64,000 nucleotides of DNA. Origin: Komagataeibacter melaceti (GTDB lineage: Bacteria > Pseudomonadota > Alphaproteobacteria > Acetobacterales > Acetobacteraceae). Location: positions 1-64,000 of the forward strand of contig NZ_QUWV01000071.1 of assembly GCF_003403295.1 (NCBI RefSeq), given 5' to 3'. The notes under the pieces were generated by a model, which ran no database searches, was not told the DNA's origin, and was given only the letters and a program-made list of their open reading frames with translations. Numbering within the stretch: the first letter of the stretch is position 1; each line of letters opens with the position of its first letter. The translations under genes and the position numbers were made by a program. Below are positions 8,212-64,000 of the stretch, piece after piece.

Positions 8212-8294
8212 GTTTTTCACCTCCGGGCCTCACGATAATGATGTTGCCAGCAGGCCAGCCCCTGCATGATCCAGCACAGGCGGAGTATCGTTAC

Positions 8295-10733: not shown

Positions 10734-13700
10734 ATGGACGGGAACATTGCATCCTCGCTACCGACCGGCCACGCCTTCCGGGCGAAGCGGCGTTCATGGC
10801 TGGCGCGCCTGCTGGGTCATCCGCCAGAACTGACATGGCTGGATGATTTCGCGCCGGTACGGAGCGAGATTTTTGGCCTGGAACGGCTCGAAGCCCATGC
10901 CCGCAGCCTTGCCAGCGCCCAGACGGTCGCATCCCACACAGGGGGTGGTTACGGTCGCCCCCTGTCAAAACGGCTGGCGGAAAACGGGGCCTTCCTGCGT
11001 GCGGCCGACATACGCATTGCCGAGGCCATACAGAGCGGAAAGCAGTTGACGCCCGCCGCCCAATGGCTGGCCGACAACTACGCCCTGGTGGACATGCAGA
11101 TACGCGAGACGGATCTGGACCTGCCACCGCGTTACTATGCCCGCCTGCCCAAGCTGGCCAATGGCCCCTTTGCCGGGCTGCCACGGGTGTTCGGGGCCAC
11201 ATGGGCGCTGGTGGCCCATACGGACAGCAACCTGCAGCCGGACGTCCTGCATCGTTACCTGATGGCTTACCAGAGCGTGGTGCCACTCACCATTGGTGAA
11301 CTCTGGGCCGTGCCGATCACGCTGCGGATCATCCTGATCGAGAACCTGCGCCGGGTTGTCGCCGCGATCATGACCAACAACGCCAGCAGGCGGGATGCCG
11401 ACAGGCTGGCGGACCGGCTCGACCTTTACCGCAAGGACCCCACCGCCGCCATTCCTGCCTTTCTGGCCACGGTGGACCCGTCCATCCTCACCAACGCCTT
11501 TACCGCGCAGCTTGCCCACCGTTCACGCGGGCTGGACCCGGAAAAGGACCCCGCTCTTGTCTGGCTGGGGCAACGCCTTGCCGATCGCGGCACCAGCATT
11601 GACAGCGCGGTGCGTGACGACCTGCAGGAACAGGGCACGTTCAACGCCACCATCCGCAACATCATCACCAGCCTGCGGCTGATTGCCGGGCTGGACTGGA
11701 CGGAGGCATTTGACCGGGCGTGTCTCGTCAACGGGGTTTTTGCCAGCTACGACAGCTTCACGCAGGCCGATTTCGCCAGCCGTGACCTGTACCGCAAGGC
11801 CATTGAGGAACTGGCCCGGGGCAGCAGCCACAGTGAGGTGGCGATAGCCGAACTGGCCGTGACCATGGCGCGCAGGGCGCAGGAGATGGCCCCATCCGAT
11901 CCACGCCGCGCTGACCCCGGTTATTACCTGCTCATGGCGGGACGCGGCGCGCTGGAAGCCGCAATCAACTTTCGCCCGTCATTCACACGCCTGCTGGGCC
12001 GTGGTTTCCGTGCGTATGGCATTACGGCGTACAGCACGGTGGTCATGCTGCTCAGCCTGCTCTTCCTTGCCCTGCCCCTGTGGCTGAGTGACGAGACGGG
12101 GGTGGATTACCTGTGGCTGCTGGCGGTGCTGGCCTTCCTGCCGGTTTCGGAAGCCGCGATCGCATGCGTCAACCGGGTGGCGCTGGAACTGGTGCATGCC
12201 ACCCCCCTGCCGGGGCTGGAGCTGCTTGATGGCATTCCCGCCCGACTGCGCACCATGGTTGTCGTGCCCGTCCTGCTGACAACGGATGAAACGGTCAGCG
12301 CCCTGCTGGCGCGGCTGGAAGTACACTATCTGGCCACGCGCGATGACTCCGTCCATTTCGCGCTGCTGAGTGACTGGACCGATTATACACAGGCCGAAGC
12401 GCCGGATGACCAGCGGCTGCTGGACCGCGCGCTGGCGGGTATCGAGACACTCAACCGCAAATACGGCCCCGTGCCCGGTGGCATGCGTTTCTACCTGCTG
12501 CACCGCAAGCGCGTATGGAGCCGGAGCGAAGGGGTGTGGATGGGGTGGGAGCGTAAGCGTGGCAAGCTGCATGAACTCAACCGCCTGCTGCGCGGGGCCA
12601 CGGATACGACATTCCTGCCCCCGGCCCATGACCTGCCGCATGATGTCAGGTACGTCATTACACTGGACGCCGATACACGCCTGCCGCTGGAAACCGTGCG
12701 CCGCCTGATCGGCAAGATGGCGCACCCGCTCAATACCCCGGCCTTTGATCCCGCATCGGGCCGGGTGCGGGAGGGGCACGGTATTCTTCAGCCCCGGGTC
12801 ACACCCTCCCTGCCGGTCGGGCACCAGAGCACGCTGTTCCAGCGCATCTTCGCCAGCGCCAGCGGCATTGACGCCTATTCCGCCGCGGTATCCGACCTGT
12901 ACCAAGACATGTTTGGTGAAGGATCGTACGCGGGCAAGGGCATATATGATGTCGACGCCTTCCACGCCGCCCTTGCCGGGCGGGTGCCGGAATCAGCCCT
13001 GCTCAGCCATGACCTGTTCGAGGGGATCTTCGCCCGCGCCGGCCTTGCAACGGATGTGGAGGTGGTGGAGGAATTCCCCACCGACTACCTTGTCGCAACC
13101 CAGCGCCTGCACCGCTGGACACGCGGTGACTGGCAGTTGCTGCCATGGATCACATCGGGCGCCCTGCGCCGCAATATTTCTGCGCACGCACGTATTTCGG
13201 GCATTGCGCGGTGGAAGATGCTCGACAACCTGCGGCGCACGCTCAGCATGCCGTTTGCGCTGCTCACACTCGTCACGGGCTGGTTCCTGCCCCTGCATAC
13301 GGCGGTCGTGTGGACAGGGTTCATCCTGCTGACCATCGCAGTACCCGCCTTCCTGCCTGTCCTGCCCGACCTTGTACCGCGCCGGGAATGGATTACGCTG
13401 CGCAGTTACCTCAGTGTCATTGCCGCCACCAGCACCGAGGCGGCAATCACCACCTTTCTCAACATCACCTTCCTTGCGCATCAGGCTTTCATCATGGCCG
13501 ATGCGATCACGCGCACGCTGGTGCGCGTATTCATTACCCGCCGCTACATGCTCCAGTGGGTGCCCGCCGCCCAGATCGCGGGGCTGCTGCGCTCGGGTCT
13601 GGCCGGATATTATGGGCGGATGCTGGCCGCGCCCCTGCTGGCGGGGGCAATTACGCTATGCGTTGCCCAGTGGGCGCCATGGAGCCTGTTTCTGGAACTG

Positions 13701-16700
13701 CCGGTCGCATTGCTGTGGTGCCTGTCACCCGCCGTGGCCATGTGGGCCAGCCGCACGCCGGTCATCGCCGCCCGCTCACGGCCCTCACGTACCGATATCC
13801 GCACGCTGCGCATGACTGCCCGCCGCACCTGGCGCTTTTTCGAGACGTTCACCACCCCGGCGGACCATATGCTGCCGCCTGACAATTTTCAGGAAGACCC
13901 CTCGCCCATTCTGGCGCGGCGCACGTCACCCACCAATATCGGCCTGTACCTGCTCTGCACCGCCAGTGCGCGGGATTTTGGCTGGTGTGGCCTTGCCGAT
14001 ACCGTGGCACGGCTGGAAGCCACCTTCGCCACGCTGGAAACCATGGCCCGCTACCGTGGGCATTTCTACAACTGGTACGCAACCGAAGACCTCAGCCCGC
14101 TTGAGCCGGTTTACGTATCCAGCGTGGATAGCGGCAATCTGGCGGGGCACCTGATCGCGCTGGCCAGCACCTGCCAGAAATGGCGCGACGGCACGGCATC
14201 AACCGATGCCTGGCGTGACGGCGTTGCGGATGCGCTGAACATCGCCATTACGGACCTGACATTCCGCAACGGCGCACGCCTGGCCAACACGGTGCCCGAA
14301 CGGCAGTTGCTGCGGCTACTGACCGGGCTGAAAAACGCGGTCCTGTCCACCCAAGGCAACTCCGCCGGGGAACTGGCCACCCTGCACCGCCACGCAGCCC
14401 AAGTTGCGGAGCATGCCGCGCGGATGCACCCGAGCGTGCCCGAGAACGGCGGCGATGTCATTGCCGACCGGCTGTTCTGGACAGCTTCCCCCCTCCATAC
14501 GCTGGAAAGCCACCTGCGCGACCTTGATGCCGATCTGTATGCCACGCTGCCCACCCGGCTTGACGCACTGGCGCACAAAGCGCGGACCATGGCGCAGGAA
14601 ATGGACTTCCACTTCCTGTGCAATCCATCGCGCAAGCTCCTGTCCATCGGGTATCTGGTCGCGGAAGATACGCTGGATTCCAACTGCTATGACCTTCTGG
14701 CATCCGAAGCCCGGCTGGCGGTGTTCTTTGCCATAGCCAAGGGCGACATGCCCGCGCATGACTGGTTCCGGCTGGGCCGCTCGATCACACCGGTAAAAAA
14801 TGGCGCGGCACTCGTTTCATGGTCCGGCTCGATGTTCGAGTACCTCATGCCCTCGCTGGTCATGCGCGCGCCGATGGGCAGCCTGCTCCAGCAGACGAAC
14901 GCCCTGATCGTGCAGCGCCAGATCGCGTACGGGCAGGCGCGCAACATTCCATGGGGCATTTCGGAATCCGCCTATAACGTGCGCGATCTTGACTATACCT
15001 ACCAGTATTCCAACTTCGGGGTGCCGGGGCTGGGGCTCAAGCGCGGGCTGGGGCTGGATACGGTGGTGGCCCCCTACGCCACCATGCTGGCGGCCATGGT
15101 TGATCCACAAAAGGCGGTGGCCAACCTGTACGTTCTGGAAAAAACCGGCGCGCTTGGCCGCTACGGGCTTTACGAATCCCTTGATTACACGCCTGACCGG
15201 GTACCCGACCATGGCACTGTCGCGATCATCCGGGCCTATATGGCGCATCATCAGGGCATGTCCATCCTTGCGGTGGCGGACGCCATCATGAACGGCATCA
15301 TGCGCACCCGCTTTCATGATGACCCGATCATCGCCTCGGCCGAACTGCTGTTGCAGGAACGCGCGCCGCGCACCGGAGCAGTCGCCCGCCCGCTCCCGTC
15401 CGAAGATGATGCAAAACCCGTGACCCGCCCCGTCACCACACCGGCGGGGCGCTACCTGGAACGCGCGGATACGTCGCAGCCGGTCACGCACCTGCTCTCC
15501 AACGGGCGCTACACGGTCATGCTGACGGCGGCGGGGTCGGGCTACAGCCGGTGGAACGGGCTGGCCATCACGCGCTGGCGCGAGGATGTCACCTGCGATG
15601 ATTATGGCACCTATATCTATCTCAGGAACCGCAGGACGGGACATGTCTGGTCCGCCGGGGCGCAGCCCGCTGGCAGGCGGCCTGATGAATATGCCGTCGC
15701 CTTCCATGAAGACCGCGCCGAATTCGGCCGCCGTGATGGATCACTGACCACCACGCTGGAAATACTCGTCTCGGCTGAAGATGACGCCGAGGTCCGCCAG
15801 CTTTCGGTGTACAACAGCGGCAGCGACGTGGTGGAAATCGACATCACGTCCTACGCCGAACTTGCCATGCTGGCGCAGGATGGTGACATGGCGCATCCGG
15901 CCTTTACCAAGCTGTTTGTCCAGACCGAATACCTGCCCGATTTCCGCACCCTGATCGCAACCCGCCGCCGCCGCACGCCCGATGAGGCGGAAATCTGGGT
16001 TGCCCATCTGGCGGTCTTCGAAGCCGGGAGCGAAATCGAGATTGAAACCGACCGCGCATCCTTTATCGGCCGCAGGCAGAGTGTGCACCAGCCAGCGGCC
16101 ATATCGGGCCTGACGCCGCTTTCGGGCCATACCGGCACGGTGCTTGATCCTGCCTTTTCTATCCGGGTTCCGGTTTCCATCCGCCCCGGCACGCGGGCGC
16201 GCGTTGCGTTCTGGACCATGGCCGCCGCCAGCCGCGAGGCCCTGCTGGACATGATCGACAGGCACAAGGACCATGCCGCCTTTGAGCGCGTACGCACGCT
16301 TGCATGGACACAGGCGCAGGTACAGTTGCGGCACCTGGACATTCCCGCCACCACGGCGGACCTGTTCCAGCGGCTGGCGGGGCATATCCTTTTTGCCGGG
16401 CCAGCCCTGCGCGCGAACACCGCGGCCATTACCAAGGGGGCCGGCGCGCAGCCACTGCTGTGGGAACAGGGCATTTCAGGCGACCTGCCCATTCTCCTGC
16501 TGCGCATACGCGAGGCGTCCGATACCGGTATCGTACGGATGCTACTGCAGGCACATGAGTATTTCCGGCTCAAGCAACTGGCGGTGGATTTTGTCATCCT
16601 GAACGAACACCCGTCTTCTTACCTGCAGGAACTGCAGGTGGCGCTTGACCATATGGTGCATGCCATCCCACGCGGGGACAACAAAACCGGCTCCATACGC

Positions 16701-19298
16701 GTGCTGCGGGCCGACCTGCTGACCCCGGTCCTGCGCAATCTCATCGTGTCCATCGCCCGTGTGGTTCTGGTGGCTGATCATGACCTGGCGGAGCAGCTTG
16801 ACTACGCGCAGGGAACTGCAACGCGCACCTTCCTGCCCGCGCTGGCAGCGCCCCCCGTGGCGGCTTCGGCCTTTGGCGTGCCAGCCATACCGGAGCTGGA
16901 ATTCTTCAACGGCCATGGGGGCTTTGCCGAAAACGGGCGGGAATATGTGGTGGTCCTTGGGCCGGGGCAGAACACGCCAGCGCCATGGATCAATGTCATT
17001 ACCAACGCGACATTCGGCTTCCAGGTCTCGGCCGAGGGCAGCGGCTATACATGGTCGGTCAACAGCCGCGAGCACCAGATCACGCCATGGTCGAACGACC
17101 CGGTCAGTGACCATGCGGGCGAAGTCTTCTATTTCCATGATGAAACCAGCGGCGCGCTGTGGTGCCCCACCGCCGCCGTGCGCCGCGACCGTGCCGCGAC
17201 CTATGTGGCGCGGCATGGGCGGGGATATTCGCGGCTGGAGCGTATCGCGCACGGCATCGCCAGCACCCTGCTCCAGTACGTGCCCGTGACGGACCCGGTC
17301 AAGATTACGCGCATCCAGCTTCACAACCTGTCGGACCAGCCACGCACGCTGTCAGTTACCGCCTATGTGGAATGGGTGCTGGGCCGCGCGCGCAGCACGG
17401 CGGGCCCCTTTGTTTCCACCGCTATGGATGGGGAGACCGGCGCGCTGTTCGCCCGCAACCGATGGAATGCCGAATATGGCGACCGGGTCGCGTTTGCCGA
17501 TATTGGTGGCTATCTCACCGCCTGTTCGGGCGACCGGAGCGCATTTATCGGCCGCAACGGCACGCTGGACCACCCGGAGGCATTCACCCGCGCCAATGGC
17601 GTGCAGGGCCGCACCGGTGCCGGACTGGACCCGTGCGGGGTGGTACAGACAATCGTGACGCTGCCACCAGGGGGGAAGGCTGAAATCACCTTCCTGTTGG
17701 GTGAAGGGGAAAACGAGGACGAAGCCCGCAACCTTGTCACCCGTTACCGTACGATCAACCCCGATCAGGTGCTGGATGCGGTCAGGCGGCACTGGGATGG
17801 TGTGGGTGGCACCATACAGGTCCACACGCCTGACCGGAGTATGGATATCATGCTCAATGGCTGGCTGCTCTATCAGGCGCTGGCCAGCCGCGTGCAGGCA
17901 CGGGCCGGTTTCTATCAGGCAAGCGGCGCCTATGGCTTCCGTGACCAGTTGCAGGATGGCATGGCGCTGGCCCTGTCCTGCCCGGATCTGGTGCGCGCGC
18001 ACCTGCTGCGCGCGGCGTCACGGCAGTTCGTGGAAGGGGATGTGCAGCACTGGTGGCTGCCACACACCGGCGCGGGCGTACGCACCCATATCTCCGATGA
18101 CTGTGCGTGGCTTGCCTATACGGTGGCCCATTACGTCACCACATCGGGCGATACGGGCGTGCTGGACGAACATCTCGCCTTTCTGGAAGCGCCCCCCCTG
18201 CCCATGAGCGAACATGACCGTTTCATGGTCCCCGCCACCTCCGGGCAGGGTGGGTCACTGTTTGAACACTGCGCCCGCGCGCTGGACCACAGTATGGCTA
18301 CGGGGGCGCATGGCCTGCCGCTGATGGGCACGGGCGACTGGAACGACGGCATGAACCATGTCGGCGCGGAAGGCCGGGGGGAGAGTGTGTGGCTGGGCTG
18401 GTTCCTGCACACCACGCTGATGACGTTCATCCCGCTGGCGCGCGCACGCGGCGATCACACCCGCGCCCAGCGATGGGAGGAACACGCCCGGGCGCTGGCC
18501 ACGGCGCTGGAAGACACATGGGATGGGGACTGGTACCTGCGCGCCTATTTTGATGACGGCACGCCACTGGGTTCACATACCGCGGCGGAATGTCAGATCG
18601 ACGCCATTTCCCAGTCATGGGCCGTGCTGTCGGGTGTGGCATCACTGGAACGAGCGGAGCATGCCATGCGCTCGGCCATTACACGGCTTGTGCGGCCGCA
18701 TGACGGGCTGGTCCTTGTCCTCACGCCGCCGTTCGACACCATGGAGCCCGATCCCGGCTACATCCGTGGCTATCCGCCCGGCATACGTGAAAACGGGGGC
18801 CAGTATACCCATGCCGCCCTGTGGACGGTCATGGCCGTGGCCGCGCTGGGGGATGGGGACCGGGCACATGGCCTGTTCCACATGATCAACCCCATCAACC
18901 ATGCACGCGACCCGGACGAAGTGGCCCGTTACCGGCTGGAACCCTATGTTGTCGCGGCCGATGTCTATTCCTGCCCGCCGCATGTGGGCCGGGGCGGGTG
19001 GTCATGGTACACCGGATCGGCCGGGTGGATGCAGCGCGTTGGAGTGGAGACCATTCTGGGCATCCGCATCCATGGCACGCAATTACTGATTGACCCCTGC
19101 ATACCGCGTGAATGGCCGAAATTCGGGGCAAGCATCCGCTGGCGCACGGCCACCTACAGCATTACCGTGCAAAATCCGAACCAGGTGTGCCGTGGCATCA
19201 GTCATGTCAGCGTGGATGGCCGGTCCCTGACGGCCACCACAATCATAGAAATGGTGGATGATGGCGCATCCCATACGGTCACCGTCACGCTGGGCTGA
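10734..19298 (+). CDS. ndvB: Cyclic beta-glucan synthase (NdvB/ChvB/Cgs type)
   Basis: A 2,854-residue membrane enzyme, the usual length for ChvB, NdvB and Cgs (about 2,830-2,870). Order: an N-terminal cytoplasmic region; a membrane pair at about 426-486; a GT84 glycosyltransferase core with D645-A-D647 (TLDADTRLP) and R791-L-H-R-W; a membrane cluster at about 829-1006; a glycoamylase-like segment near 1407 (WGISESAYN, then YSNFGVPGLG); and C-terminal GH94 phosphorylase-like modules with YGFRDQLQDGMAL and the catalytic D2535-W-N-D-G. Family members initiate, elongate, trim and cyclise beta-1,2-glucan from UDP-glucose; the periplasmic product serves in osmoadaptation and host interaction. No dedicated exporter (NdvA/ChvA) is in the window. 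The start has GGAG about 10 nt upstream. Confidence 0.93.
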   Translation: MDGNIASSLPTGHAFRAKRRSWLARLLGHPPELTWLDDFAPVRSEIFGLERLEAHARSLASAQTVASHTGGGYGRPLSKRLAENGAFLRAADIRIAEAIQSGKQLTPAAQWLADNYALVDMQIRETDLDLPPRYYARLPKLANGPFAGLPRVFGATWALVAHTDSNLQPDVLHRYLMAYQSVVPLTIGELWAVPITLRIILIENLRRVVAAIMTNNASRRDADRLADRLDLYRKDPTAAIPAFLATVDPSILTNAFTAQLAHRSRGLDPEKDPALVWLGQRLADRGTSIDSAVRDDLQEQGTFNATIRNIITSLRLIAGLDWTEAFDRACLVNGVFASYDSFTQADFASRDLYRKAIEELARGSSHSEVAIAELAVTMARRAQEMAPSDPRRADPGYYLLMAGRGALEAAINFRPSFTRLLGRGFRAYGITAYSTVVMLLSLLFLALPLWLSDETGVDYLWLLAVLAFLPVSEAAIACVNRVALELVHATPLPGLELLDGIPARLRTMVVVPVLLTTDETVSALLARLEVHYLATRDDSVHFALLSDWTDYTQAEAPDDQRLLDRALAGIETLNRKYGPVPGGMRFYLLHRKRVWSRSEGVWMGWERKRGKLHELNRLLRGATDTTFLPPAHDLPHDVRYVITLDADTRLPLETVRRLIGKMAHPLNTPAFDPASGRVREGHGILQPRVTPSLPVGHQSTLFQRIFASASGIDAYSAAVSDLYQDMFGEGSYAGKGIYDVDAFHAALAGRVPESALLSHDLFEGIFARAGLATDVEVVEEFPTDYLVATQRLHRWTRGDWQLLPWITSGALRRNISAHARISGIARWKMLDNLRRTLSMPFALLTLVTGWFLPLHTAVVWTGFILLTIAVPAFLPVLPDLVPRREWITLRSYLSVIAATSTEAAITTFLNITFLAHQAFIMADAITRTLVRVFITRRYMLQWVPAAQIAGLLRSGLAGYYGRMLAAPLLAGAITLCVAQWAPWSLFLELPVALLWCLSPAVAMWASRTPVIAARSRPSRTDIRTLRMTARRTWRFFETFTTPADHMLPPDNFQEDPSPILARRTSPTNIGLYLLCTASARDFGWCGLADTVARLEATFATLETMARYRGHFYNWYATEDLSPLEPVYVSSVDSGNLAGHLIALASTCQKWRDGTASTDAWRDGVADALNIAITDLTFRNGARLANTVPERQLLRLLTGLKNAVLSTQGNSAGELATLHRHAAQVAEHAARMHPSVPENGGDVIADRLFWTASPLHTLESHLRDLDADLYATLPTRLDALAHKARTMAQEMDFHFLCNPSRKLLSIGYLVAEDTLDSNCYDLLASEARLAVFFAIAKGDMPAHDWFRLGRSITPVKNGAALVSWSGSMFEYLMPSLVMRAPMGSLLQQTNALIVQRQIAYGQARNIPWGISESAYNVRDLDYTYQYSNFGVPGLGLKRGLGLDTVVAPYATMLAAMVDPQKAVANLYVLEKTGALGRYGLYESLDYTPDRVPDHGTVAIIRAYMAHHQGMSILAVADAIMNGIMRTRFHDDPIIASAELLLQERAPRTGAVARPLPSEDDAKPVTRPVTTPAGRYLERADTSQPVTHLLSNGRYTVMLTAAGSGYSRWNGLAITRWREDVTCDDYGTYIYLRNRRTGHVWSAGAQPAGRRPDEYAVAFHEDRAEFGRRDGSLTTTLEILVSAEDDAEVRQLSVYNSGSDVVEIDITSYAELAMLAQDGDMAHPAFTKLFVQTEYLPDFRTLIATRRRRTPDEAEIWVAHLAVFEAGSEIEIETDRASFIGRRQSVHQPAAISGLTPLSGHTGTVLDPAFSIRVPVSIRPGTRARVAFWTMAAASREALLDMIDRHKDHAAFERVRTLAWTQAQVQLRHLDIPATTADLFQRLAGHILFAGPALRANTAAITKGAGAQPLLWEQGISGDLPILLLRIREASDTGIVRMLLQAHEYFRLKQLAVDFVILNEHPSSYLQELQVALDHMVHAIPRGDNKTGSIRVLRADLLTPVLRNLIVSIARVVLVADHDLAEQLDYAQGTATRTFLPALAAPPVAASAFGVPAIPELEFFNGHGGFAENGREYVVVLGPGQNTPAPWINVITNATFGFQVSAEGSGYTWSVNSREHQITPWSNDPVSDHAGEVFYFHDETSGALWCPTAAVRRDRAATYVARHGRGYSRLERIAHGIASTLLQYVPVTDPVKITRIQLHNLSDQPRTLSVTAYVEWVLGRARSTAGPFVSTAMDGETGALFARNRWNAEYGDRVAFADIGGYLTACSGDRSAFIGRNGTLDHPEAFTRANGVQGRTGAGLDPCGVVQTIVTLPPGGKAEITFLLGEGENEDEARNLVTRYRTINPDQVLDAVRRHWDGVGGTIQVHTPDRSMDIMLNGWLLYQALASRVQARAGFYQASGAYGFRDQLQDGMALALSCPDLVRAHLLRAASRQFVEGDVQHWWLPHTGAGVRTHISDDCAWLAYTVAHYVTTSGDTGVLDEHLAFLEAPPLPMSEHDRFMVPATSGQGGSLFEHCARALDHSMATGAHGLPLMGTGDWNDGMNHVGAEGRGESVWLGWFLHTTLMTFIPLARARGDHTRAQRWEEHARALATALEDTWDGDWYLRAYFDDGTPLGSHTAAECQIDAISQSWAVLSGVASLERAEHAMRSAITRLVRPHDGLVLVLTPPFDTMEPDPGYIRGYPPGIRENGGQYTHAALWTVMAVAALGDGDRAHGLFHMINPINHARDPDEVARYRLEPYVVAADVYSCPPHVGRGGWSWYTGSAGWMQRVGVETILGIRIHGTQLLIDPCIPREWPKFGASIRWRTATYSITVQNPNQVCRGISHVSVDGRSLTATTIIEMVDDGASHTVTVTLG

Positions 19299-38035: not shown

Positions 38036-38050
38036 GCAAAAGGCGTGCCA
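38036..38050 (-). promoter_or_regulatory. Sigma-54 promoter of fixABCX-modD
   Basis: On the minus strand, TGGCACG-CCTT-TTGC fits the consensus at every fixed base. It predicts a start near 38024, giving an untranslated leader of about 37 nt before fixA. Confidence 0.88.
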
Positions 38051-38130: not shown

Positions 38131-38457
38131 TTACTCCCCGCTTTGTGTCAACTCCGACAGGCTGACAAAAGCACCGGACGGGCGGATGGCGTCCCGATGC
38201 ACCTTGAACACACGTTCCGTAATGGGGGTCGAGCGGGTGAAGTCATCATAGGCACGCTGAAGCTGCGCACGGCACAGCGCACGGCACGCGGCATCATCAC
38301 CACCCTGTTCGATATCGGCACCATTGAGATAGGTACCCATGCGGCGCAGGATGTGCAGCCGGGCCACATTGAGCACCTGCGGGTCGTACGGCACGTCAAG
38401 CACGCGAAAAAAATCCTCAGCCGCCGAAAGCTGGCGCAGTTCGTCCAGTATTCCCAT
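38131..38457 (-). CDS. nifW: Nitrogenase-stabilising protein NifW
   Basis: A 108-residue protein with the NifW pattern: L-x-x-L-x-x-A-E-D-F-F at the N-terminus, FRVLDVPYDPQVLNVARLHILRRMGTYL, and ...A-Y-x-D-F. NifW protects or helps maturation of the MoFe protein under oxygen. It ends the iscN-nifUSVW operon and its last codons hold the fix operon NifA site. Confidence 0.94.
   Translation of the reverse strand: MGILDELRQLSAAEDFFRVLDVPYDPQVLNVARLHILRRMGTYLNGADIEQGGDDAACRALCRAQLQRAYDDFTRSTPITERVFKVHRDAIRPSGAFVSLSELTQSGE
38144..38159. promoter_or_regulatory. NifA upstream activator site for fixABCX
   Basis: TGT-GTCAACTCCG-ACA is an exact TGT-N10-ACA. It lies about 100 bp upstream of the -24 element, inside the 3' end of nifW. 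It differs at two bases from the nifB site at 55710. Confidence 0.85.
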
Positions 38458-51528: not shown

Positions 51529-51543
51529 GCAAACAGCGTGCCA
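51529..51543 (-). promoter_or_regulatory. Sigma-54 promoter of the nifH operon
   Basis: Minus strand TGGCACG-CTGT-TTGC, a full consensus match. The predicted start near 51517 gives a leader of about 55 nt before nifH. Confidence 0.92.
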
Positions 51544-51604: not shown

Positions 51605-51620
51605 TGTCGCGCTTCGTACA
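51605..51620. promoter_or_regulatory. NifA upstream activator site for nifH
   Basis: TGT-CGCGCTTCGT-ACA is an exact TGT-N10-ACA, about 70 bp upstream of the -24 element. It lies inside a wider inverted repeat, TTGTCGC (51604-51610) / GCGACAA (51624-51630). Confidence 0.88.
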
Positions 51621-55634: not shown

Positions 55635-55649
55635 GCAAGAAGCATGCCA
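55635..55649 (-). promoter_or_regulatory. Sigma-54 promoter of the nifB operon
   Basis: Minus strand TGGCATG-CTTC-TTGC: one mismatch (C to T) from consensus, with the GG and GC cores intact. The predicted start near 55623 leaves about 28 nt of leader. Confidence 0.82.
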
Positions 55650-55709: not shown

Positions 55710-55725
55710 TGTGTCAACCACGACA
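55710..55725. promoter_or_regulatory. NifA upstream activator site for nifB
   Basis: TGT-GTCAACCACG-ACA, an exact TGT-N10-ACA, about 68 bp upstream of the -24 element. Nearly identical to the fixABCX site. Confidence 0.85.
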
Positions 55726-55745: not shown

Positions 55746-57509
55746 TCAGAATTTTTTAATGGAAATCCCGTTCTTGCGCAGGGCATAGCCGATCTGGCGC
55801 GGGGTCAGGCCCAGTATGCGCGCGGCCTTGGCCTGCACCCATCCCGCCGTTTCCATAGCCTCGATCAGTTCTTCGCGCTGCGCGCTCCATTCTCCCTGCG
55901 CAGCCGAACAGACCGAGGAGGACGGACAGGTCGCCGCCGGGTCAGGGGCCGATGACGCGGCAGGGGCTGCAACGACTTCATCAACCGGCAGGGACGGCAC
56001 GGGCGGCGGTGGGGCCGGAACAGTGTCCTTATCCACCGTGCCGGTGCTGTCCTGCGCCAGTTGCGGGCCGGGTAATGAGGACGCAGGTGTAGGATTGCGC
56101 CAGAAAATGGAGGAAAGGCATCCATCACTCCGGCAGGCGAAATCCTGCGCGGTAATGACATCTCCCTGCGCGAGGGTTGCCGTCCTGCGAATACAGTTTT
56201 CCAGTTCACGCACATTGCCGGGGAAGTAGCACGCAGTCAGCACATCCACGCCGGTGGGATCAATGGACAGGTCGGTATGGTTGCTTTCGTTAAAGCGACG
56301 GAGGAATTCCTCGGCCAGCAACGGAATATCGGACATGCGCTCACGCAGGGCGGGCAGAAAAATGGGGATCACACTCAGGCGGTAATACAGGTCGGCACGG
56401 AAGCGCCCCTTGCTGACCGCCTCTTCAAGGTTACGGTTTGTCGCCGTCACGATGCGGACATTGACCTTGAGCGTACGCGTGCCTCCCACACGCTCGAATT
56501 CCCCATCCTGAAGCACACGGAGCAGCTTGGCCTGAAAACTGGGTGAAATCTCACCGATCTCATCCATGAACAGCGTGCCGCCATCAGCCAGTTCAAAGCG
56601 CCCCTTGCGCTGGTTGAGTGCTCCAGTAAACGCCCCCTTTTCATGCCCGAACAGTTCGGATTCCAGCACACTTTCAGGCAGGGCGGCGCAATTCAGTTTA
56701 ACGAAAGGCTTGTTCTGCCGGGGGGATGCCATATGGATGGCGCGGGCAAAAAGCTCCTTGCCCGTGCCGGACTCACCACGCAACAGGACGGTGACGTTAC
56801 TGCGGGCCACGATCTCGATTTTCTTGAGCACGGCGCGCAGGGCCGGGCTGTTGCCCACAATGCCGAAATCATTCCCGCTTTCCTCCCCTTCCGTCAGGGC
56901 CTTGCGTTCATGTGCGACATCTTTCATCAGCCGTTCACGGTCACGCTGCACCAGGCGGTGCAGGCGCAGCATCTGCCCCATAAGCCCCGCGACCATGGAA
57001 AGCAGGCTGACATCAATACTGCCGACAACTGAATCCTGTGCAATCGCGGGCCGGTCCAGAATCAGGACACCAACCACCTGTTCACGGCTGATGATGGGCA
57101 CGCCGATGATCCCGATGCGACCGGGGCCGACCTCCCACGCCGGGGCCCTGGCAAAACCGTATTTCATATCCAGCGCCACATCCGGTACCAGCAATGGTTG
57201 CTGGCTGGTAACGATCTGCCCGATGGCCTGTTCGGGCATGCTGCCGACATAGGTTCTGGCGGCAACGGGATCGGCATAGGTGCTGATGACCGTATCGTTG
57301 TTTTCCGCCTCATCGAACAGGACAACGGCGGCGTTGTTCATATCGACAAAGTTTTCAAGAATGGTCAGGACGCTTTTGATGATTCCGGAAGTTTCCGTTG
57401 GCGCACACAAAATTTTTGAAATTTCATGCAGCCCGAATAAAGCGCGTTCCGCCCATGTTGACTGGCCTGCCATGTTGACGGGCCGACAGGGAATGTGATC
57501 CGCAGGCAT
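55746..57509 (-). CDS. nifA: Nif-specific sigma-54 activator NifA
   Basis: About 587 residues from the ATG at 57509 (GGAGG upstream); the open frame extends to 57578. Order: N-terminal GAF domain (about 25-180); AAA+ core with Walker A GESGTGKE (about 245-252) and GAFTGA (about 292-297) for sigma-54 contact; an interdomain cysteine motif C427-x11-C439-x19-C459-x4-C464, exactly that of oxygen-sensitive alphaproteobacterial NifA; a Pro/Ala-rich linker; and a Fis-type helix-turn-helix at the C-terminus. It activates the nifB, nifH, iscN and fixA promoters. Its own promoter is not recognisable. Confidence 0.97.
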
Positions 57510-57752
57510 GTCTATTGCCTCCCCCCACTTCTCCAACTGCACCCAGATATGCTCCTTCGGGATGCATAGACATGACACCCCGGCACAGGAGTTACAACCT
57601 TCATTTTAAAAATATGAAACATATCATCCCAGAATTCGATAACAAATTTCTTAGATTTTCTATTTCCATTATTTTTCTAATGCTTACGTCTTGTCGTATA
57701 TATTCGTTCGGGAATAGATATATGTTCCGTTTTATATAGATGTCCGGAATAC

Positions 57753-58331
57753 TTACTCTGCATAACGCTCTTCGGGCAGTCTTTCGGACCGGCTGCGCAC
57801 GTACAGGTGCGCCCAGTCAAGCAGGCTTGCGCTGCGCGGCGGCAGGACCGGTGCAGCATGATCCTGACCAATAAATGCCTCCCACGCCGGAAGGTGATTA
57901 CGGCTTACGACAACGACCACCGGGATGCCCCGGCAGATGGCTTCCGCTATTTCCGTGCGCAGGCCGCCGCCTTCGGCCTCCCGCACACCGAACCGGTTGA
58001 TGAACAGCACATCGGGGGCCTGTTCGATTCGTGTTCGCAACGTCACCGCAATCGTGCCCATTGCATCCATATCCAGCGTGCATGCACGCGCGCCCGCGCC
58101 GCGATAGCGGTCCAGCCGGACCAGGGAGCCATCCGTCAGGTCATGCACATACATCTCGTACCGGCCGTCGCTGCGCAGCCGGCCGCGCTTCTGGACAAAG
58201 CCGCCAACCTCCAGCCCTCGCGCACGCAGGATGGTGATTGCATGCCACAAAGCCATCTCGACTTCCTGCGGGTCATTGTCCTGCATGATGACCGCAATCG
58301 GATAGGCGTATGAACCTGCGTGGTCTGGCAT
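57753..58331 (-). CDS. DUF2478-family protein, mod/nif associated
   Basis: A 192-residue protein: YPIAVIMQDNDPQEVEMALWHAI, then GFVQKRGRLRSDGRYEMYVHDLTDG, CTLDMDAMG, DVLFINRFGVREAEGGGLRTEIAEAICRGIPVVVVV. This is the DUF2478 pattern. Members lie next to molybdate transport and nif genes and may be NTPase-like; function is unproven. It is transcribed away from modABC and has its own sigma-54-like promoter. Confidence 0.82.
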   Translation of the reverse strand: MPDHAGSYAYPIAVIMQDNDPQEVEMALWHAITILRARGLEVGGFVQKRGRLRSDGRYEMYVHDLTDGSLVRLDRYRGAGARACTLDMDAMGTIAVTLRTRIEQAPDVLFINRFGVREAEGGGLRTEIAEAICRGIPVVVVVSRNHLPAWEAFIGQDHAAPVLPPRSASLLDWAHLYVRSRSERLPEERYAE

Positions 58332-58369
58332 CTTTGTGCTCCCCTATCTTGATTGACAGTCCGGCACAC

Positions 58370-58384
58370 GCAATTTTCGTGCCG
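58370..58384 (-). promoter_or_regulatory. Sigma-54-like promoter of the DUF2478 gene
   Basis: Minus strand CGGCACG-AAAA-TTGC differs from consensus only at the first base. The start would be near 58358, with a leader of about 27 nt. I found no TGT-N10-ACA nearby. Confidence 0.65.
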
Positions 58385-58446
58385 AAACCTGCACCGGATT
58401 ATGACAGAACTTTTTCAGTACCGAATATCACGCTGTATTTATATAT

Positions 58447-58469
58447 CGTTTCTACATAGTTCCATAACG
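58447..58469 (+). promoter_or_regulatory. Possible degenerate Mo-box (ModE-type site)
   Basis: CGTTTCTA-N7-CCATAACG keeps the CGTT...ATAACG ends of ModE boxes. It abuts the -24 element of the modA promoter. No modE gene is in the window, so this is tentative. Confidence 0.3.
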
Positions 58470-58484
58470 TGGCATGGCTTTTGC
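58470..58484 (+). promoter_or_regulatory. Sigma-54 promoter of modABC-rpoN
   Basis: TGGCATG-GCTT-TTGC, one base from consensus and with the same C-to-T change as the nifB promoter. The predicted start near 58496 leaves a leader of about 92 nt before modA. Confidence 0.72.
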
Positions 58485-58587
58485 GTGTAACCTGTCATCT
58501 CTGGCGTTTGCCCGGACCTTTCGGCGCATTGGCGGACGTACCCCGCCTGCCCCGCACAGGTTCACGGCCCGGACAAAAGGTACTGCA

Positions 58588-59364
58588 ATGCGTGCATTCC
58601 GCCTGATCCTGCTTGTGCCCGCCACCATCATCGCGCTGCTTGCCGCGCGACAGGCCATGGCCGACCCGCTCCGGCTGGCCGTTGCCGCGAATTTCACCGG
58701 GACCGCGCAGCAGCTTGTGGCGGAATTTACACAAAATACCGGCATAACCGCGACAATCAGTTCCGGTTCAAGCGGGCAGCTTTTCATGCAGGTCACGCAG
58801 GGCGCGCCGTTTGATATTTTCCTCAGCGCGGATACGAAGCGCCCGACCGACCTGATCGCCAACGGGCTGGGGGTGACTACGTCCCGTTTCACCTATGCCA
58901 TTGGCCAACTGGTTCTGTGGAGCCCCGCTACGCAGACCCGGCCGGATGAACATGAACTGCGCCAGGCTGCTTTCACGCATCTGGCCATCTGCAACCCCAA
59001 TACCGCCCCCTACGGCACCGCCGCCATTGAAACACTGGACAGGCTTGGCCTGCATACCATGCTTCAGCCCAGGCTGGTGGTGGCGCAGTCGGTCAGCCAG
59101 GCACTGGAACTGGCGCAGAGCGGCAATGCCGAACTGGCCTTCGTCGCACTGGCCCAGATCCGCCCGCTGCGGGAAGGATCCTACTGGCTTGTGCCCCCGG
59201 CCTTGTACACTCCCATCCGGCAGGATGCGATCCTGCTCACCCGGGCGGAAAATGATGACCATGCGCGAAAGTTCATGGCGTTCCTGCATGGCGCAAAAGC
59301 TGCCAGCCTGATCAGGGAAGCCGGTTATCTTACGGACACTCCGGCGCAAGACCCTGCGCCATGA
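58588..59364 (+). CDS. modA: Periplasmic molybdate-binding protein
   Basis: About 258 residues from the ATG at 58588 (AAAGG upstream), which begins a signal peptide (FRLILLVPATIIALLAARQAMA). Upstream in-frame Met codons lie at the promoter and are excluded. Motifs: LRLAVAANFTGTAQQL, ISSGSSGQLFMQVTQGAPFDIFLSAD, NPNTAPYGTAA. It binds molybdate for ModBC. Start of modABC-rpoN. Confidence 0.95.
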   Translation: MRAFRLILLVPATIIALLAARQAMADPLRLAVAANFTGTAQQLVAEFTQNTGITATISSGSSGQLFMQVTQGAPFDIFLSADTKRPTDLIANGLGVTTSRFTYAIGQLVLWSPATQTRPDEHELRQAAFTHLAICNPNTAPYGTAAIETLDRLGLHTMLQPRLVVAQSVSQALELAQSGNAELAFVALAQIRPLREGSYWLVPPALYTPIRQDAILLTRAENDDHARKFMAFLHGAKAASLIREAGYLTDTPAQDPAP

Positions 59365-60047
59365 CGGTCCTCTCCCCCGACGTGACGGAAGCGGTGGTCC
59401 TGACGCTGGAACTGGCAGCGGTAACGACAACCCTGCTGATTGCGCTTGCGCTCCCGATTTCATGGTGGCTGGCATGGCCGCGGCGGTGGTGGAAGTCCGT
59501 CATTGGCGCCATCATCTCACTGCCCCTTGTCCTGCCGCCCAGTGTGCTGGGGTTTTATTTTCTGGTGGCTTTCGGGCCGTCAGGGCCCGGCGGATGGATT
59601 GCGCATCTGTGGGGCGCGCGTACGCTTGCCTTCACCTTTCCCGGTCTGGTGATCGGTTCCCTGCTCTATGCCCTGCCCTTTGCCGTGCAGCCCATCCACA
59701 ATGCATTCCACGCCATGGGACGCAGGCCGCTGGAAGTCGCGGCGACGCTTGGCGCCTCGCCATGGCGGACCTTCCATAGTGTTGTCATTCCGCTGGCATG
59801 GCCCGGCATAGCCACGGCCATCGTGCTGGGCTTTGCCCATACGGTGGGTGAATTCGGCATTGTGCTCATGATTGGCGGGGACATTCCGGGTCATACACGG
59901 GTGCTGTCAGTCGCACTGTACGACTATGTGGAAAATGCCCGCTGGCATGAGGCGAATATCATCGCGGCGGGCATGGTCGTGTTCTCGTTCATTACGATCA
60001 TGCTTCTATCCTCCCTCCAGCTTCGTAGCCGGGGGCATGATTCATGA
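59361..60047 (+). CDS. modB: Molybdate ABC transporter permease
   Basis: A 228-residue membrane protein with about five hydrophobic helices and the EAA loop (ALGRRPLEVAATLGASPWRTFHSVVIPLAWPGI-type, near residue 125). Its start overlaps the modA stop by 4 nt and its stop overlaps modC by 4 nt. It forms the channel for molybdate. Confidence 0.95.
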   Translation: MTVLSPDVTEAVVLTLELAAVTTTLLIALALPISWWLAWPRRWWKSVIGAIISLPLVLPPSVLGFYFLVAFGPSGPGGWIAHLWGARTLAFTFPGLVIGSLLYALPFAVQPIHNAFHAMGRRPLEVAATLGASPWRTFHSVVIPLAWPGIATAIVLGFAHTVGEFGIVLMIGGDIPGHTRVLSVALYDYVENARWHEANIIAAGMVVFSFITIMLLSSLQLRSRGHDS

Positions 60048-60769
60048 ACAGCGGGCGGGGTCTTCAGGCCGCTTTCCGGGGCGGCACCGGCGGGTTTTGT
60101 TATGATGTGGAATTCAGCGCGCCCACCCACGGCGTGACCGCCCTGTTCGGCCCCTCTGGCTGCGGAAAAAGCACGATCCTGCGCTGCATTGCCGGTCTGG
60201 AACGGGCGCGGGAGGGTTACTGCCACTTCAACGGCCAGATATGGCAGGACAGCCACCGCTTCGTGCCGACGTGGGAACGGCCGATCGGTTTCGTGTTCCA
60301 GGACCCCTCCCTTTTTACGCATATGTCCGTCAGGCAGAACCTGCTTTTTGGCGCATCTGGCGGCACGCGGGCGCAGCAGCAATCCGCTTTTTCGGAAACC
60401 ATTGCGATGCTGGACCTTGAACCCCTGCTTAGTCGTGGCGTGACCCATCTGTCGGGTGGAGAAAAACAGCGTGTGGCCATTGGCCGCGCCCTGCTGCGCC
60501 GGCCCGCGCTGCTGCTGATGGATGAACCCCTGTCCGCCCTGGACCAGCCCAGAAAGCAGGAAATCCTGCCCTATCTGCGCACACTGTGCCGGAATGCCAG
60601 CATTCCCGTCGTGTATATCTCCCACGATCCCGATGAAATCGCGTGCCTGACAGACCGCGTCATAACGCTGGATTCAGGTCACGTTACCCACAGGCCCACA
60701 TGGGACGACAGGCAGGCGTTCACGCCCCGGCCATCTGCCGCCGGTCCCGATGTTATGATGGGAACATAA
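60044..60769 (+). CDS. modC: Molybdate ABC transporter ATPase, short form without TOBE domain
   Basis: A 241-residue ATPase with Walker A GPSGCGKST, Q-loop FVFQDPSLF, signature LSGGEKQRVAIGRAL and Walker B LLLMDEPLSALD. Typical ModC proteins have about 350 residues and end with a TOBE/Mop domain that binds molybdate; here the protein stops after the ATPase. A separate mop gene exists at the other end of the island. It energises ModB. Confidence 0.94.
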   Translation: MNSGRGLQAAFRGGTGGFCYDVEFSAPTHGVTALFGPSGCGKSTILRCIAGLERAREGYCHFNGQIWQDSHRFVPTWERPIGFVFQDPSLFTHMSVRQNLLFGASGGTRAQQQSAFSETIAMLDLEPLLSRGVTHLSGGEKQRVAIGRALLRRPALLLMDEPLSALDQPRKQEILPYLRTLCRNASIPVVYISHDPDEIACLTDRVITLDSGHVTHRPTWDDRQAFTPRPSAAGPDVMMGT

Positions 60770-60773
60770 AACC

Positions 60774-62162
60774 ATGGCTACAGGTCATCGCCAGGAACTA
60801 GGACAGCATCAGGGTCTGTTCATAAGCGTCCGCATGCGGCAGTCGCTTCAGATCCTTCAGTTCTCCAACGCCGAACTGCAGGAATTCCTCGCCAGCGAAG
60901 TCGAGAAGAACCCCATCCTCGAACAGCCGCATGAGACGGAGGAGGCTCCCGTGCCCTCACGGGTGAAGGATACCGTATCCTACGCCTCCATCCGTGATTC
61001 CGGCGCCACGGCGCAGCGCTGGATGCACGATGGCGGGCTGGATGATGACGGCATGGCCCGCATTGCCGACAGCGCCCCACCACTGCGTGAGCGTATATTC
61101 GAACAGTTCGTACTCTCGGGCTGCACCCTGGCCGAGCGTGAAATCGGTGCGCACCTGATCAGCGGGCTTGATGCCGTCGGCCGCCTGTCGCTCCCGCCCG
61201 GGGAGATTGCCGGTATGCTCGGGGTGCCTGCATCGCAGGTCGAAGCGGTGCGGCAGCGGATGATGCGCCTGGACCCGCCGGGGCTGTTTGCACAATCCCT
61301 GCATGAATGCCTGCGGGTCCAGTTGGAAGAGCGGAACCGGATGGACCCGGCAATGGAAAAACTGCTGGAAAATCTCGACCTGCTGGCACGTCATGACCTC
61401 AAGCGGCTATGCCAGGTCTGTAATGTGGACCTTGAGGACATGCACGATATGGTCTCCGACCTGCGTGCACTCAATCCGAAACCGGGCGCGGAGGCATTAT
61501 CGGGCAATCCGGGTCTGGCCGTGCCTGACATATTGATGGAACACACCCCGGAATCCGGCTGGATACTGGAACTGAACCCCGATACAACACCACGTGTTGT
61601 CATAAACAGCGCCCTCAGCACCCGTATTTCCCTACGTGCCCACGCAACGGAGCGCGCCTTTCTGGCGGAGCATCTGACCAGCGCGAACTGGCTGATCCGC
61701 TCGCTCCAGCAAAGAAGCATAACGATCCTGCGTGTCGCCACGGAGATCATGCGGCGTCAGGAAAAATTCCTGACACAGGGGCCCGCGGGCCTTGCACCAC
61801 TGACGCTGCGCATGGTGGCGGAAAGCCTTGATATGCACGAAAGCACCGTCAGCCGTGTTACGGCCAACAAATATATTGCCACCGTTCGTGGCATCCTGCC
61901 GCTCAAGTTCTTCTTTGTCGCGGCCCTGCCGGGGCAGAATGGCGAGATGCACAGCAGCCTCGCCATCCAGAACCAGATCAGGCAGATGATCCAGGGGGAA
62001 CAGCCAACCGCCCCGTTATCGGATGACGCCATTGCGGCCCAACTGCGCGGCAAAGGGATAGAAGTCGCCCGGCGCACCGTTGCAAAATACCGCGAGGGCA
62101 TGGGCTTTCCCAATTCGGTCCAGCGCAGGCAGCGTGCCAACAGTTCCATAGCACCTGCCTGA
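60774..62162 (+). CDS. rpoN: RNA polymerase sigma-54 factor
   Basis: 462 residues. The N-terminal Gln/Leu-rich activator region has SVRMRQSLQILQFSNAELQEFLASEVEKNPILE. The central core-binding domain and a helix-turn-helix (TLRMVAESLDMHESTVSRVTANKYI) follow, and the RpoN box ARRTVAKYRE lies near 432-441. It starts 4 nt after modC and so is the fourth gene of the mod operon. It directs transcription at -24/-12 promoters of the nif, fix and mod genes. Whether the genome has a second rpoN cannot be told here. Confidence 0.96.
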   Translation: MATGHRQELGQHQGLFISVRMRQSLQILQFSNAELQEFLASEVEKNPILEQPHETEEAPVPSRVKDTVSYASIRDSGATAQRWMHDGGLDDDGMARIADSAPPLRERIFEQFVLSGCTLAEREIGAHLISGLDAVGRLSLPPGEIAGMLGVPASQVEAVRQRMMRLDPPGLFAQSLHECLRVQLEERNRMDPAMEKLLENLDLLARHDLKRLCQVCNVDLEDMHDMVSDLRALNPKPGAEALSGNPGLAVPDILMEHTPESGWILELNPDTTPRVVINSALSTRISLRAHATERAFLAEHLTSANWLIRSLQQRSITILRVATEIMRRQEKFLTQGPAGLAPLTLRMVAESLDMHESTVSRVTANKYIATVRGILPLKFFFVAALPGQNGEMHSSLAIQNQIRQMIQGEQPTAPLSDDAIAAQLRGKGIEVARRTVAKYREGMGFPNSVQRRQRANSSIAPA

Positions 62163-62203
62163 AGGGATGGCACGGGCCGTTTCCATTACTGAACGGACCG
62201 GGA

Positions 62204-63328
62204 TCATTCAGGGCCTTTTGTGATCGTTATTGCGAAGCATGTGGCCACAAACCCGTCGATGGCAAGTTTCAGATGATGCTGGTTGGTGCTTATTCCCAGC
62301 TCCTCGCTCACATTGTTCATCAGGTGCCCGCCCCATGGCGGCACATCAATGAACTGGTCCATCGGACGGTTGCCCGCATTGAAATCAAGCTGTGCGACCT
62401 TGTGCCCTGCCGCCTCCATTTTCCGGGCGAATTCCTCAATATGTTTGCGCTGGAACAGAACGGTTATCCAGTTGTCTATGGTCGGTCCATCCGGGTTGAT
62501 GTTGAATTCCATCGTATGGACCGCCGTACCGCCGGGGCGGAGGGTGCGGAGGGAGTTCTCAATAAAATCCAGTCCTTTCTGGATTGATCCCAGATGCTCC
62601 AGCGCGCAGATCGACCAGCAGAAATCATATCCGGAAAGGTCATCCGGTATGGCATTCATATCCACAAACCGGTGACTGACCATGCGGTTGAAAGTATCCC
62701 TGTCAACCAGATGCTCCATATACGCATTTTCCAGCGTCTGCGCATATTCATTACTGCTCATCCACCCCGAAGTCTGCTGATGTTCGGGCGGCAGGTCGGT
62801 AATGGTTGTGCTGACCCCCTTGGCGGCAAGGTAACTGGGGATCGGTTCAACGCCGCAGCCAAACCCCAGCCCCTTCTTATCTGGGGAAATATTGCCCGTG
62901 GAATACAATGCCTGAAGCAGATAGGTGTGTTCCCATATCTTTCTATGGAGAATGAGGGGAACCTTCAGCTCGGATGTCCAGTATCGGGACCAGTCGCTTT
63001 CCATATCCTCCTGAGTGCAGAGTTTGGATTTTATCGCTATATCCTGCGGCCCATCATGCTGGACAGGTGGCAGGGCATCTACCAGCGAACGTGCCAGACG
63101 GTACCCCATTGCCTTGATATTCAACGAAGTTGCGTCAATATTACGCAACCTCTCATTCAGTGCGTTAATATTCGGCTGTGAATCCTGATTGACAAGACTA
63201 AGCAGAAGACGCAGTTTCCGTTCATTATATTCATCCGAGATCGCGTTAACCTGCTTTTCTAATATTGCCCTCACTCTCCTGTTTAACGGACGTGTGATAA
63301 ACGCACTGATTTTCTTTTTTATGCTCAT
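62204..63328 (-). CDS. SAM-dependent methyltransferase-like protein
   Basis: A 374-residue protein. A basic N-terminus and a helical region (about 1-140) precede a class I methyltransferase core: motif I GLGFGCGVEPIPSYLAAKG (about 155-173), TITDLPPEHQQ, then DFCWSICALEHLGSIQKGLDFI and LRPGGTAVHTMEF. Substrate unknown; similar proteins occur in polysaccharide or glycan clusters. It converges on rpoN and looks unrelated to nitrogen fixation. Confidence 0.8.
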   Translation of the reverse strand: MSIKKKISAFITRPLNRRVRAILEKQVNAISDEYNERKLRLLLSLVNQDSQPNINALNERLRNIDATSLNIKAMGYRLARSLVDALPPVQHDGPQDIAIKSKLCTQEDMESDWSRYWTSELKVPLILHRKIWEHTYLLQALYSTGNISPDKKGLGFGCGVEPIPSYLAAKGVSTTITDLPPEHQQTSGWMSSNEYAQTLENAYMEHLVDRDTFNRMVSHRFVDMNAIPDDLSGYDFCWSICALEHLGSIQKGLDFIENSLRTLRPGGTAVHTMEFNINPDGPTIDNWITVLFQRKHIEEFARKMEAAGHKVAQLDFNAGNRPMDQFIDVPPWGGHLMNNVSEELGISTNQHHLKLAIDGFVATCFAITITKGPE

Positions 63329-64000
63329 GGGGGGCCTATGTATGATTTTTCATGGTCCGCTGCGGACTGACTGTTACTGCACACCTAAACCATTGTGGAA
63401 AATGAATAAAACGAAAATCAACCTGTAACACGTTGCGTTGCATAACTGCCAATAGCCGGTGACGGCCCGCAGGTTGTAACACATTGTCGGTATGTTCAAG
63501 GATTTCGTCAGCCCGTCTTCTCAGGGTTGATGAGACAGTCACTGTTGCTGGCTACCACAACATTCCGCCTGCTACAGGCTTTGGGGAACGCTCCTTCACC
63601 CCGCCTGCCCGCTACAGAAATTGCAAGAGGCCACCGGTAAATTATACCGGAGGGGTTTCCAGCAGGCACCTTGCCCGCACCAAATAGGCCGCCTGCCGAT
63701 CGGGTTCAGGCCCTGTCATAACGTCTTTCAAAAACGCCATGGTGTTCCAGGTCCGCAATACCCGCAGGGTGAATGGCATTCTTTTTGCGGCGGGACACTC
63801 AGGGGGAGCGCATGTTCATTTGCCCGGTTTTCCACAGGCCGGACGGTGCATGCAGTCAATATGGAAAACAGGGCACCAGCGGTACGGAAAAGAAATATAT
63901 CCTCCTTCAACCACCATGCACCATCCATAACCGGATGACCGACGAGTGACGGAAGATACCAGCCTGAATACTGTCGTAATTACGACATTCTGACGTCTGC
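63329..64000. other. Right-end intergenic region without supported genes
   Basis: About 670 nt. Short open frames are present but lack ribosome sites and coding character. Dyads: CCGGTA-AATTA-TACCGG (63634-63650) and the perfect 16-bp palindrome at 63972-63987. Confidence 0.45.
63972..63987. promoter_or_regulatory. Perfect TGT-N10-ACA palindrome at the window edge
   Basis: TGTCGTAATTACGACA is a perfect 16-bp palindrome that also fits the NifA site pattern TGT-N10-ACA. What it controls lies beyond the window, if anything. It could equally be the operator of another dimeric regulator. Confidence 0.4.

Follow-up and report, generated by a model that had tools for sequence, protein, structure and literature searches.

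A stretch of 64,000 nucleotides (nt) from Komagataeibacter melaceti, hereafter the window (64,000 of the 65,114 bases of contig NZ_QUWV01000071.1, in a genome of 3.49 Mb), carries the molybdate transporter genes modABC directly followed by rpoN, the gene for sigma-54. These four genes probably constitute an autoactivated nitrogen-fixation (nif) operon with a private RpoN that is insulated from NtrC. The operon layout, the conservation of its promoter, the presence and absence of genes, the phylogeny and the residue changes described below are established by sequence comparison, and from these we infer co-transcription, activation by NifA, autoactivation and functional insulation from NtrC. Such an arrangement may enable nitrogen fixation to increase its own sigma-54 supply and to keep sigma-54 isolated from other functions of the cell.

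The modABC-rpoN gene string and its sigma-54 promoter

The genes modA, modB, modC and rpoN are contiguous, all rightward, from 58588 to 62162, with spacings of -4, -4 and +4 nt. Upstream of modA lies an exact match (TGGCATG-N4-TTGC, 58470..58484, plus strand) to the sigma-54 search pattern TGGCAYG-N4-TTGC, with its -24 and -12 elements. An earlier reading of this DNA, made from the letters alone (the sequence-only reading), had described both the contiguity with 4-nt overlaps or gaps and the promoter at this position, and both are borne out. The exact -24/-12 element recurs upstream of modA in 7/7 loci (this genome and six relatives), although the remaining intergenic DNA upstream of modA shows little conservation across the two genera concerned. 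Gene families were assigned with Pfam and NCBIfam profiles and their cut-offs, and neighboring genes in relatives were located by tblastn. By these profiles modA (58588..59364, plus strand; TIGR01256, 203 bits, above cut-off) encodes a molybdate-binding protein, modB (59361..60047, plus strand; TIGR02141, above cut-off) a molybdate permease, and modC (60044..60769, plus strand) an ABC ATPase of 241 residues. The earliest ATG of the modA frame, at 58474, falls inside the promoter element, and for this reason the start was set at the plausible ATG at 58588. ModC aligns with positions 1-216 of the 353 positions of modC_ABC (TIGR02142), its best NCBIfam match, at 282.3 bits, slightly below the cut-off of 285.05 bits; it lacks the C-terminal part of this model and has no TOBE domain among its Pfam matches. 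The ModABC transporter set is complete, with ModA and ModB above cut-offs and ModC by best match. The nif-linked rpoN (60774..62162, plus strand) encodes 462 residues matching Sigma54_AID, CBD, DBD and TIGR02395, all above cut-off; the AID, core-binding and DNA-binding domains are all present, and the RpoN box reads ARRTVAKYR.

Exact sigma-54 sites are concentrated around the nif genes. The whole genome holds 21 exact matches vs 3 for the reversed pattern used as a control, and six of the 21 fall within the 64-kb window, where about 0.4 would be expected by length; sites with at most one mismatch number 13 in the window vs 6.5 expected. Four of the six exact window sites precede nifH, nifB, a fixA-like gene and modA, and a fifth is located at the 5' end of the frame of an IscA-like gene. 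The promoters of nifH (51529..51543; gene by TIGR01287), nifB (55635..55649; gene by TIGR01290) and the fixA-like gene (38036..38050), all on the minus strand, each have an exact TGT-N10-ACA NifA site 61-94 nt upstream, at 51605-51620, 55710-55725 and 38144-38159, respectively. The sixth exact sigma-54 element, at 7651-7665, is distant from the nif genes and precedes a YceI-family gene (8238-8906) by about 0.6 kb.

Upstream of modA, the opposite strand carries a DUF2478 gene (57753..58331, minus strand; PF10649, 147.8 bits), nifA (55746..57578, minus strand; TIGR01817, above cut-off, with an intact GAFTGA motif) and nifB, and a divergent -24/-12 element with one mismatch (58370..58384, minus strand) points toward the first two. 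An element of this kind, with at most one mismatch, is present in 7/7 intergenic regions, 65-236 nt from the modA promoter. The DUF2478 gene is the divergent neighbor in 6/7 modABC-rpoN loci; in G004, a genome of the same genus that has no DUF2478 match by tblastn, the gene labeled next on the divergent side is nifA, which hints that nifA may share the autoactivation loop. Searches with the DUF2478 protein returned nine loci, three of them in Gluconacetobacter; the other six have no rpoN in the flanks examined, and one of these six has modABC nearby.

Distribution and origin of the private RpoN copies

The modABC-rpoN operon is found in this genome (G000), in two others of the same genus (G012 and G004), and in four sister-genus genomes, three of whose loci are identical over a 2-kb core to those of Gluconacetobacter diazotrophicus PA1 5 (PAl5), G. 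azotocaptans LMG 21311 and G. johannae LMG 21312. In all seven loci the modC-rpoN spacing is +5 to -8 nt, and rpoN comes immediately after genes related to nitrogen fixation, within a single gene string. Identity to the proteins of this genome ranges from 48 to 77% for ModA and from 52 to 91% for RpoN. The sequence-only reading had called the linkage unusual, but it is no one-off, recurring as it does in six nif-bearing relatives. Within the host genus RpoN is matched in 3/19 genomes, the other 16 having no RpoN match at all, and true NifH (E < 1e-130) occurs in exactly the same three. The sister genus follows suit, with nifH in 4/12 genomes compared, the same four that carry modABC-rpoN. Across the family sample NifH is present in 19/397 genomes, at least seven of which have modABC-rpoN; modABC was looked for beside rpoN in these seven, while in G117, G183, G295, G378, G413 and G424 the rpoN listed and nifH are on different contigs or lie about 0.8 Mb apart, and the other six NifH genomes rank below those listed. 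One genome of the Gluconacetobacter group, G407, gives only a very weak RpoN match (3e-8) although its close relatives have a full rpoN. A plasmid origin of rpoN was considered and rejected: 230 plasmid records match RpoN, all at less than 60% identity, and no acetic acid bacterium appears among the 15 plasmid matches and 10 of 44 organism names listed.

The general-purpose copy of rpoN, linked to lptB, has by gene order been lost from the host genus. With LptB recognized by TIGR04406 and HPF by PF02482, hpf comes next after lptB at 18/18 lptB loci in the genus; it begins 276-404 nt downstream, and the interval holds no rpoN (G015, without an lptB hit, is outside this count and the lptB-region tree). 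The present genome conforms, its nif-linked rpoN lying away from lptB. Therefore sigma-54 survives in the host genus only as private copies. An intact-looking lptB-rpoN pair is kept in 6/7 genomes examined of the Gluconacetobacter group. In G. johannae (G164) an internal deletion has reduced the housekeeping rpoN between lptB and hpf to its opening and closing codons, fused in frame, a remnant that shows the loss caught mid-process; the nif-linked and hydrogenase-linked copies are both retained.

This genome does contain a second rpoN, which the sequence-only reading had proposed to seek beside lptB; it lies instead in a NiFe-hydrogenase cluster outside the window (contig C49, L003:6854-8275, minus strand). 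Its neighbors are hypB, the gene for an NtrC-family regulator, hypD, hypE and a NicO nickel transporter gene, with rpoN behind hypE and the transporter. NiFe hydrogenase is found in 4/31 genomes, exactly the four with a hydrogenase-linked rpoN, and in 4/4 of these a candidate -24/-12-like element with one mismatch lies 940-1034 nt after the hydrogenase large-subunit gene.

Both kinds of private copy look like products of duplication within the acetic acid bacteria rather than acquisitions from a distant donor. In a tree of 48 RpoN proteins (a quick method, without bootstrap; the partial proteins L023, L007 and L020 were removed before tree building and column counts), the seven nif-linked and four hydrogenase-linked copies form one group (Shimodaira-Hasegawa-like approximate likelihood ratio test [SH-aLRT] 100), and this group joins the Gluconacetobacter housekeeping RpoN inside the family (SH-aLRT 96), which is the basis for proposing duplication. 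The branching order within the private group is not settled by the tree, so the nif copies are not established as a clade of their own. Columns invariant among 37 housekeeping RpoNs, one exception allowed, were compared with the 11 private copies. Those changed in all 11 number 3/18 in Region I (P to A/V, L to M, and A to S/T), 0/23 in the core-binding domain and 1/53 in the DNA-binding domain; Region I thus stands at 3/18 vs 1/76 elsewhere (p ~0.02, with the 11 copies not independent). Hydrogenase RpoNs have further changed columns in all three domains (5, 5 and 7) and a slightly altered RpoN box, and nif RpoNs have few (1, 0 and 2) and keep the box.

One explanation of the linkage is simple packaging, in which the nif island brings its own rpoN and molybdate transporter in order to work anywhere and no coupling between them has been selected. 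Such packaging fits the joint occurrence of the operon and nif across all genomes compared from both genera, and it fits the likewise packaged hydrogenase cluster. Gene order and the sigma-54 promoter have nevertheless been kept despite the divergence of ModA and RpoN given above, and the divergent promoter has been kept as well; packaging without coupling is therefore considered unlikely, though it deserves some weight.

NtrC and the GAFTGA motif

Both NtrC and NtrX are kept in 19/19 genomes of the host genus (the G012 proteins scoring above NCBIfam cut-offs). The GAFTGA threonine has been reported to be critical for sigma-54 contact in PspF (PMC2941729). Five activator-family proteins exceed 100 bits in this genome, and GAFTGA is present in only two of them, NifA and the hydrogenase regulator. 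The motif is absent from NtrX in 7/7 checked and from this genome's RtcR-like protein (621 bits against a cut-off of 650). In NtrC it reads GAFSGA in G000 and G012 and GAFAGA in G004; within the host genus the threonine is altered only in these three RpoN-bearing genomes, and GAFTGA is intact in 9/9 Gluconacetobacter-group NtrCs retrieved. Among 404 columns invariant in 25 other NtrCs, the GAFTGA threonine alone is changed in all three (S, S, A). Columns departed from singly number one in G000 (its NtrC is truncated at a contig end), three in G012 and two in G004, with two and zero in two control genomes. A random choice of 3 of the 19 genomes would coincide with these three once in 969. The three do not form one clade, and two NtrC changes are needed both on the lptB-region tree, which is independent of NtrC, and on the NtrC tree, which was built with the motif column included. 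NtrCs without GAFTGA are described as acting at sigma-70 promoters in Rhodobacter capsulatus and Caulobacter (PMC10274813). Three RpoN-less genomes have an orphan NifA-like protein (555 residues; 398 bits, cut-off 528.85) with GAFPGA, as would be expected of decay without RpoN; the NtrC pattern is the opposite.

The proposed autoactivated circuit, its alternatives and its precedents

In the circuit favored here, the nif rpoN would be a specialized copy derived from the family's own rpoN by duplication. Some RpoN would be supplied by a weak basal promoter, which we model on those of the R. capsulatus nifU2-rpoN and Mesorhizobium loti prxS-rpoN2 operons. Once NifA is active, RpoN polymerase would fire the -24/-12 promoter at 58470, raising molybdate uptake and RpoN together, and the raised RpoN would then serve the nif and fix promoters. 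The nif-island RpoN would form a private pair with NifA and, in this genome, the hydrogenase-cluster RpoN with its NtrC-family regulator. What separates these pairs from NtrC would be altered residues in both contact partners, in Region I for the private RpoNs and at the GAFTGA threonine for NtrC. The autoregulatory loop suggested by the sequence-only reading is supported in its layout of sigma-54 promoter, modABC and rpoN, conserved in 7/7 loci, but a basal RpoN source is needed here as in R. capsulatus and the 58470 promoter is therefore not the whole story. More tentatively, and with somewhat less than an even chance of being right, sigma-54 may have been kept only as island-borne modules of one sigma factor and one activator, each with its metal uptake (molybdenum with nif, nickel with hydrogenase), made orthogonal to NtrC by reciprocal GAFTGA and Region I changes after the global sigma-54 system dissolved.

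Several observations weigh against the autoactivated, insulated operon. The required basal promoter was not located, and in the 300 nt preceding the modA promoter 0/7 loci have an exact TGT-N10-ACA site, though degenerate NifA sites may be present. One-mismatch sites occur in 3/7 (three in G004 and one shared by G254 and G285), with no position common to these genomes, of which G254 and G285 are near-identical; in the whole window TGT-N10-ACA is not in excess (12 vs 10.7 by chance). Close to the window end, at 63972-63987, a perfect palindrome, TGTCGTAATTACGACA, also matches this pattern. Genome-wide, the sigma-54 pattern is no commoner in RpoN-bearing than in RpoN-less genomes, with exact sites (reversed control in parentheses) numbering 21 (3) in G000, 15 (2) in G012 and 13 (1) in G004 vs 19 (2) in G010, 16 (6) in G001, 12 (3) in G009 and 9 (5) in G017; G254 has 11 (12). 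Among these counts the concentration of sites at nif alone is informative. NtrC retains GAFTGA in 16/16 RpoN-less genomes of the host genus, a pattern without explanation, and likewise in G. johannae though its housekeeping rpoN is lost. The NtrC pattern amounts to two events in 19 genomes, so that the evidence it gives for insulation is only moderate, and the change from T to S may leave partial activity. Because the 11 private RpoNs descend from a common ancestor, their Region I changes do not count as separate events. A housekeeping rpoN accompanies modABC-rpoN in G. diazotrophicus and G. azotocaptans, and privacy is therefore not general.

The need for basal RpoN also lends itself to an alternative in which a constitutive promoter inside modC drives rpoN and the sigma-54 promoter serves modABC only, with no meaningful loop. 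Precedents are a weak constitutive promoter directly upstream of R. capsulatus rpoN (PMC6925177) and a weak promoter between prxS and rpoN2 in Rhizobium etli (PMC3538637). The close modC-rpoN spacing in 7/7 loci suggests instead translation from one message, and a simple, weak scan for sigma-70-like sites on the rpoN strand from 57400 to 62400 found none; this alternative is judged quite unlikely. Finally, it is very improbable that a ModE-type protein lets molybdate repress modABC-rpoN at a Mo-box, as the sequence-only reading had suggested: the palindrome proposed for it (CGTT-N15-AACG, 58447..58469) abuts the -24 element with its 4+4 arms, a 122-residue frame in the genome has a ModE-like N-terminal match (78 bits, below the 98.5 cut-off), and R. 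capsulatus mopA-modABC is described as repressed via Mo-boxes (PMC6925177), but the palindrome is at chance level (1 found vs 0.88 expected) and broken in G012 and G004, a fuller Mo-box pattern allowing up to three mismatches has no match at the modA promoter, and ModE is matched above cut-off in 0/7 operon-bearing genomes (each has a sub-cut-off match of 75-79 bits), so that the Mo-box was rejected.

The autoactivated nif-rpoN operon is a type already known. In the nifU2-rpoN superoperon of R. capsulatus rpoN is likewise the last gene of a nif operon, there with a NifA-RpoN-dependent promoter plus a weak basal one (Cullen et al., 1994, as cited in PMC6925177), and NtrC of that species also lacks GAFTGA (PMC10274813). 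The two systems differ in that the gene upstream of rpoN is nifU2 there and belongs to a molybdate transporter here, in that R. capsulatus mopA-modABC is described as NtrC-RpoD driven and Mo-repressed (PMC6925177), and in that the NtrC loop is deleted there whereas one residue is changed here. The prxS-rpoN2 operons of R. etli and M. loti similarly place a second rpoN, specialized for nitrogen fixation, last in a NifA-activated operon, that of M. loti being modeled as autoactivated with a separate basal promoter; there, however, the upstream gene encodes a peroxiredoxin, and the hosts keep the housekeeping rpoN1 that is lost here (PMC3538637). RpoN1 and RpoN2 of Rhodobacter sphaeroides offer a further parallel, as sigma-54 paralogues that reportedly work only with their own activators (in part from PMC3538637). 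Their specificity is said to come partly from the promoter -11 base, whereas the class-wide changes seen here, compared by sequence only, are mostly in Region I. In G. diazotrophicus modABC was already predicted to be NifA-controlled in a comparative study whose passages on modABC do not mention rpoN as the last gene (PMC4999443), and the genome paper places modABC in the nif cluster, the word rpoN being absent from it by term search (PMC2765452). Full-text searches (rpoN with modABC and nif; Komagataeibacter rpoN; G. diazotrophicus rpoN) returned no paper title on modABC-rpoN linkage, though these searches left subscription literature mostly uncovered and earlier notice is possible.

The operon also has practical bearing. 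A sigma-54 circuit that is minimal by nature would be offered by G012 and G004, each of which has one RpoN and probably just one competent activator. Provided that the NtrC change is true insulation, experiments could address how cross-talk is avoided among sigma-54 activators with a common contact surface, and whether one residue lets NtrC shed sigma-54; such tests are practical since the same operon is present in the model diazotroph G. diazotrophicus PA1 5 (PAl5). A nif island can bring along a sigma factor and molybdenum uptake of its own, which is relevant to moving nitrogen fixation into RpoN-less hosts.

Other genes of the window deserve brief mention. Two are kept between nifH and nifB in relatives, one with a SIR2-like domain (PF13289, 51738-52568) and one encoding an LRV/HEAT-repeat iron-sulphur protein (PF05484, PF01816 and PF02985, 53045-53863). 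Far from these, an open reading frame of 2854 residues (10734-19298) matches Glycoamylase (PF10091) and Glyco_trans_2_3 (PF13632) in its initial 1500 residues.

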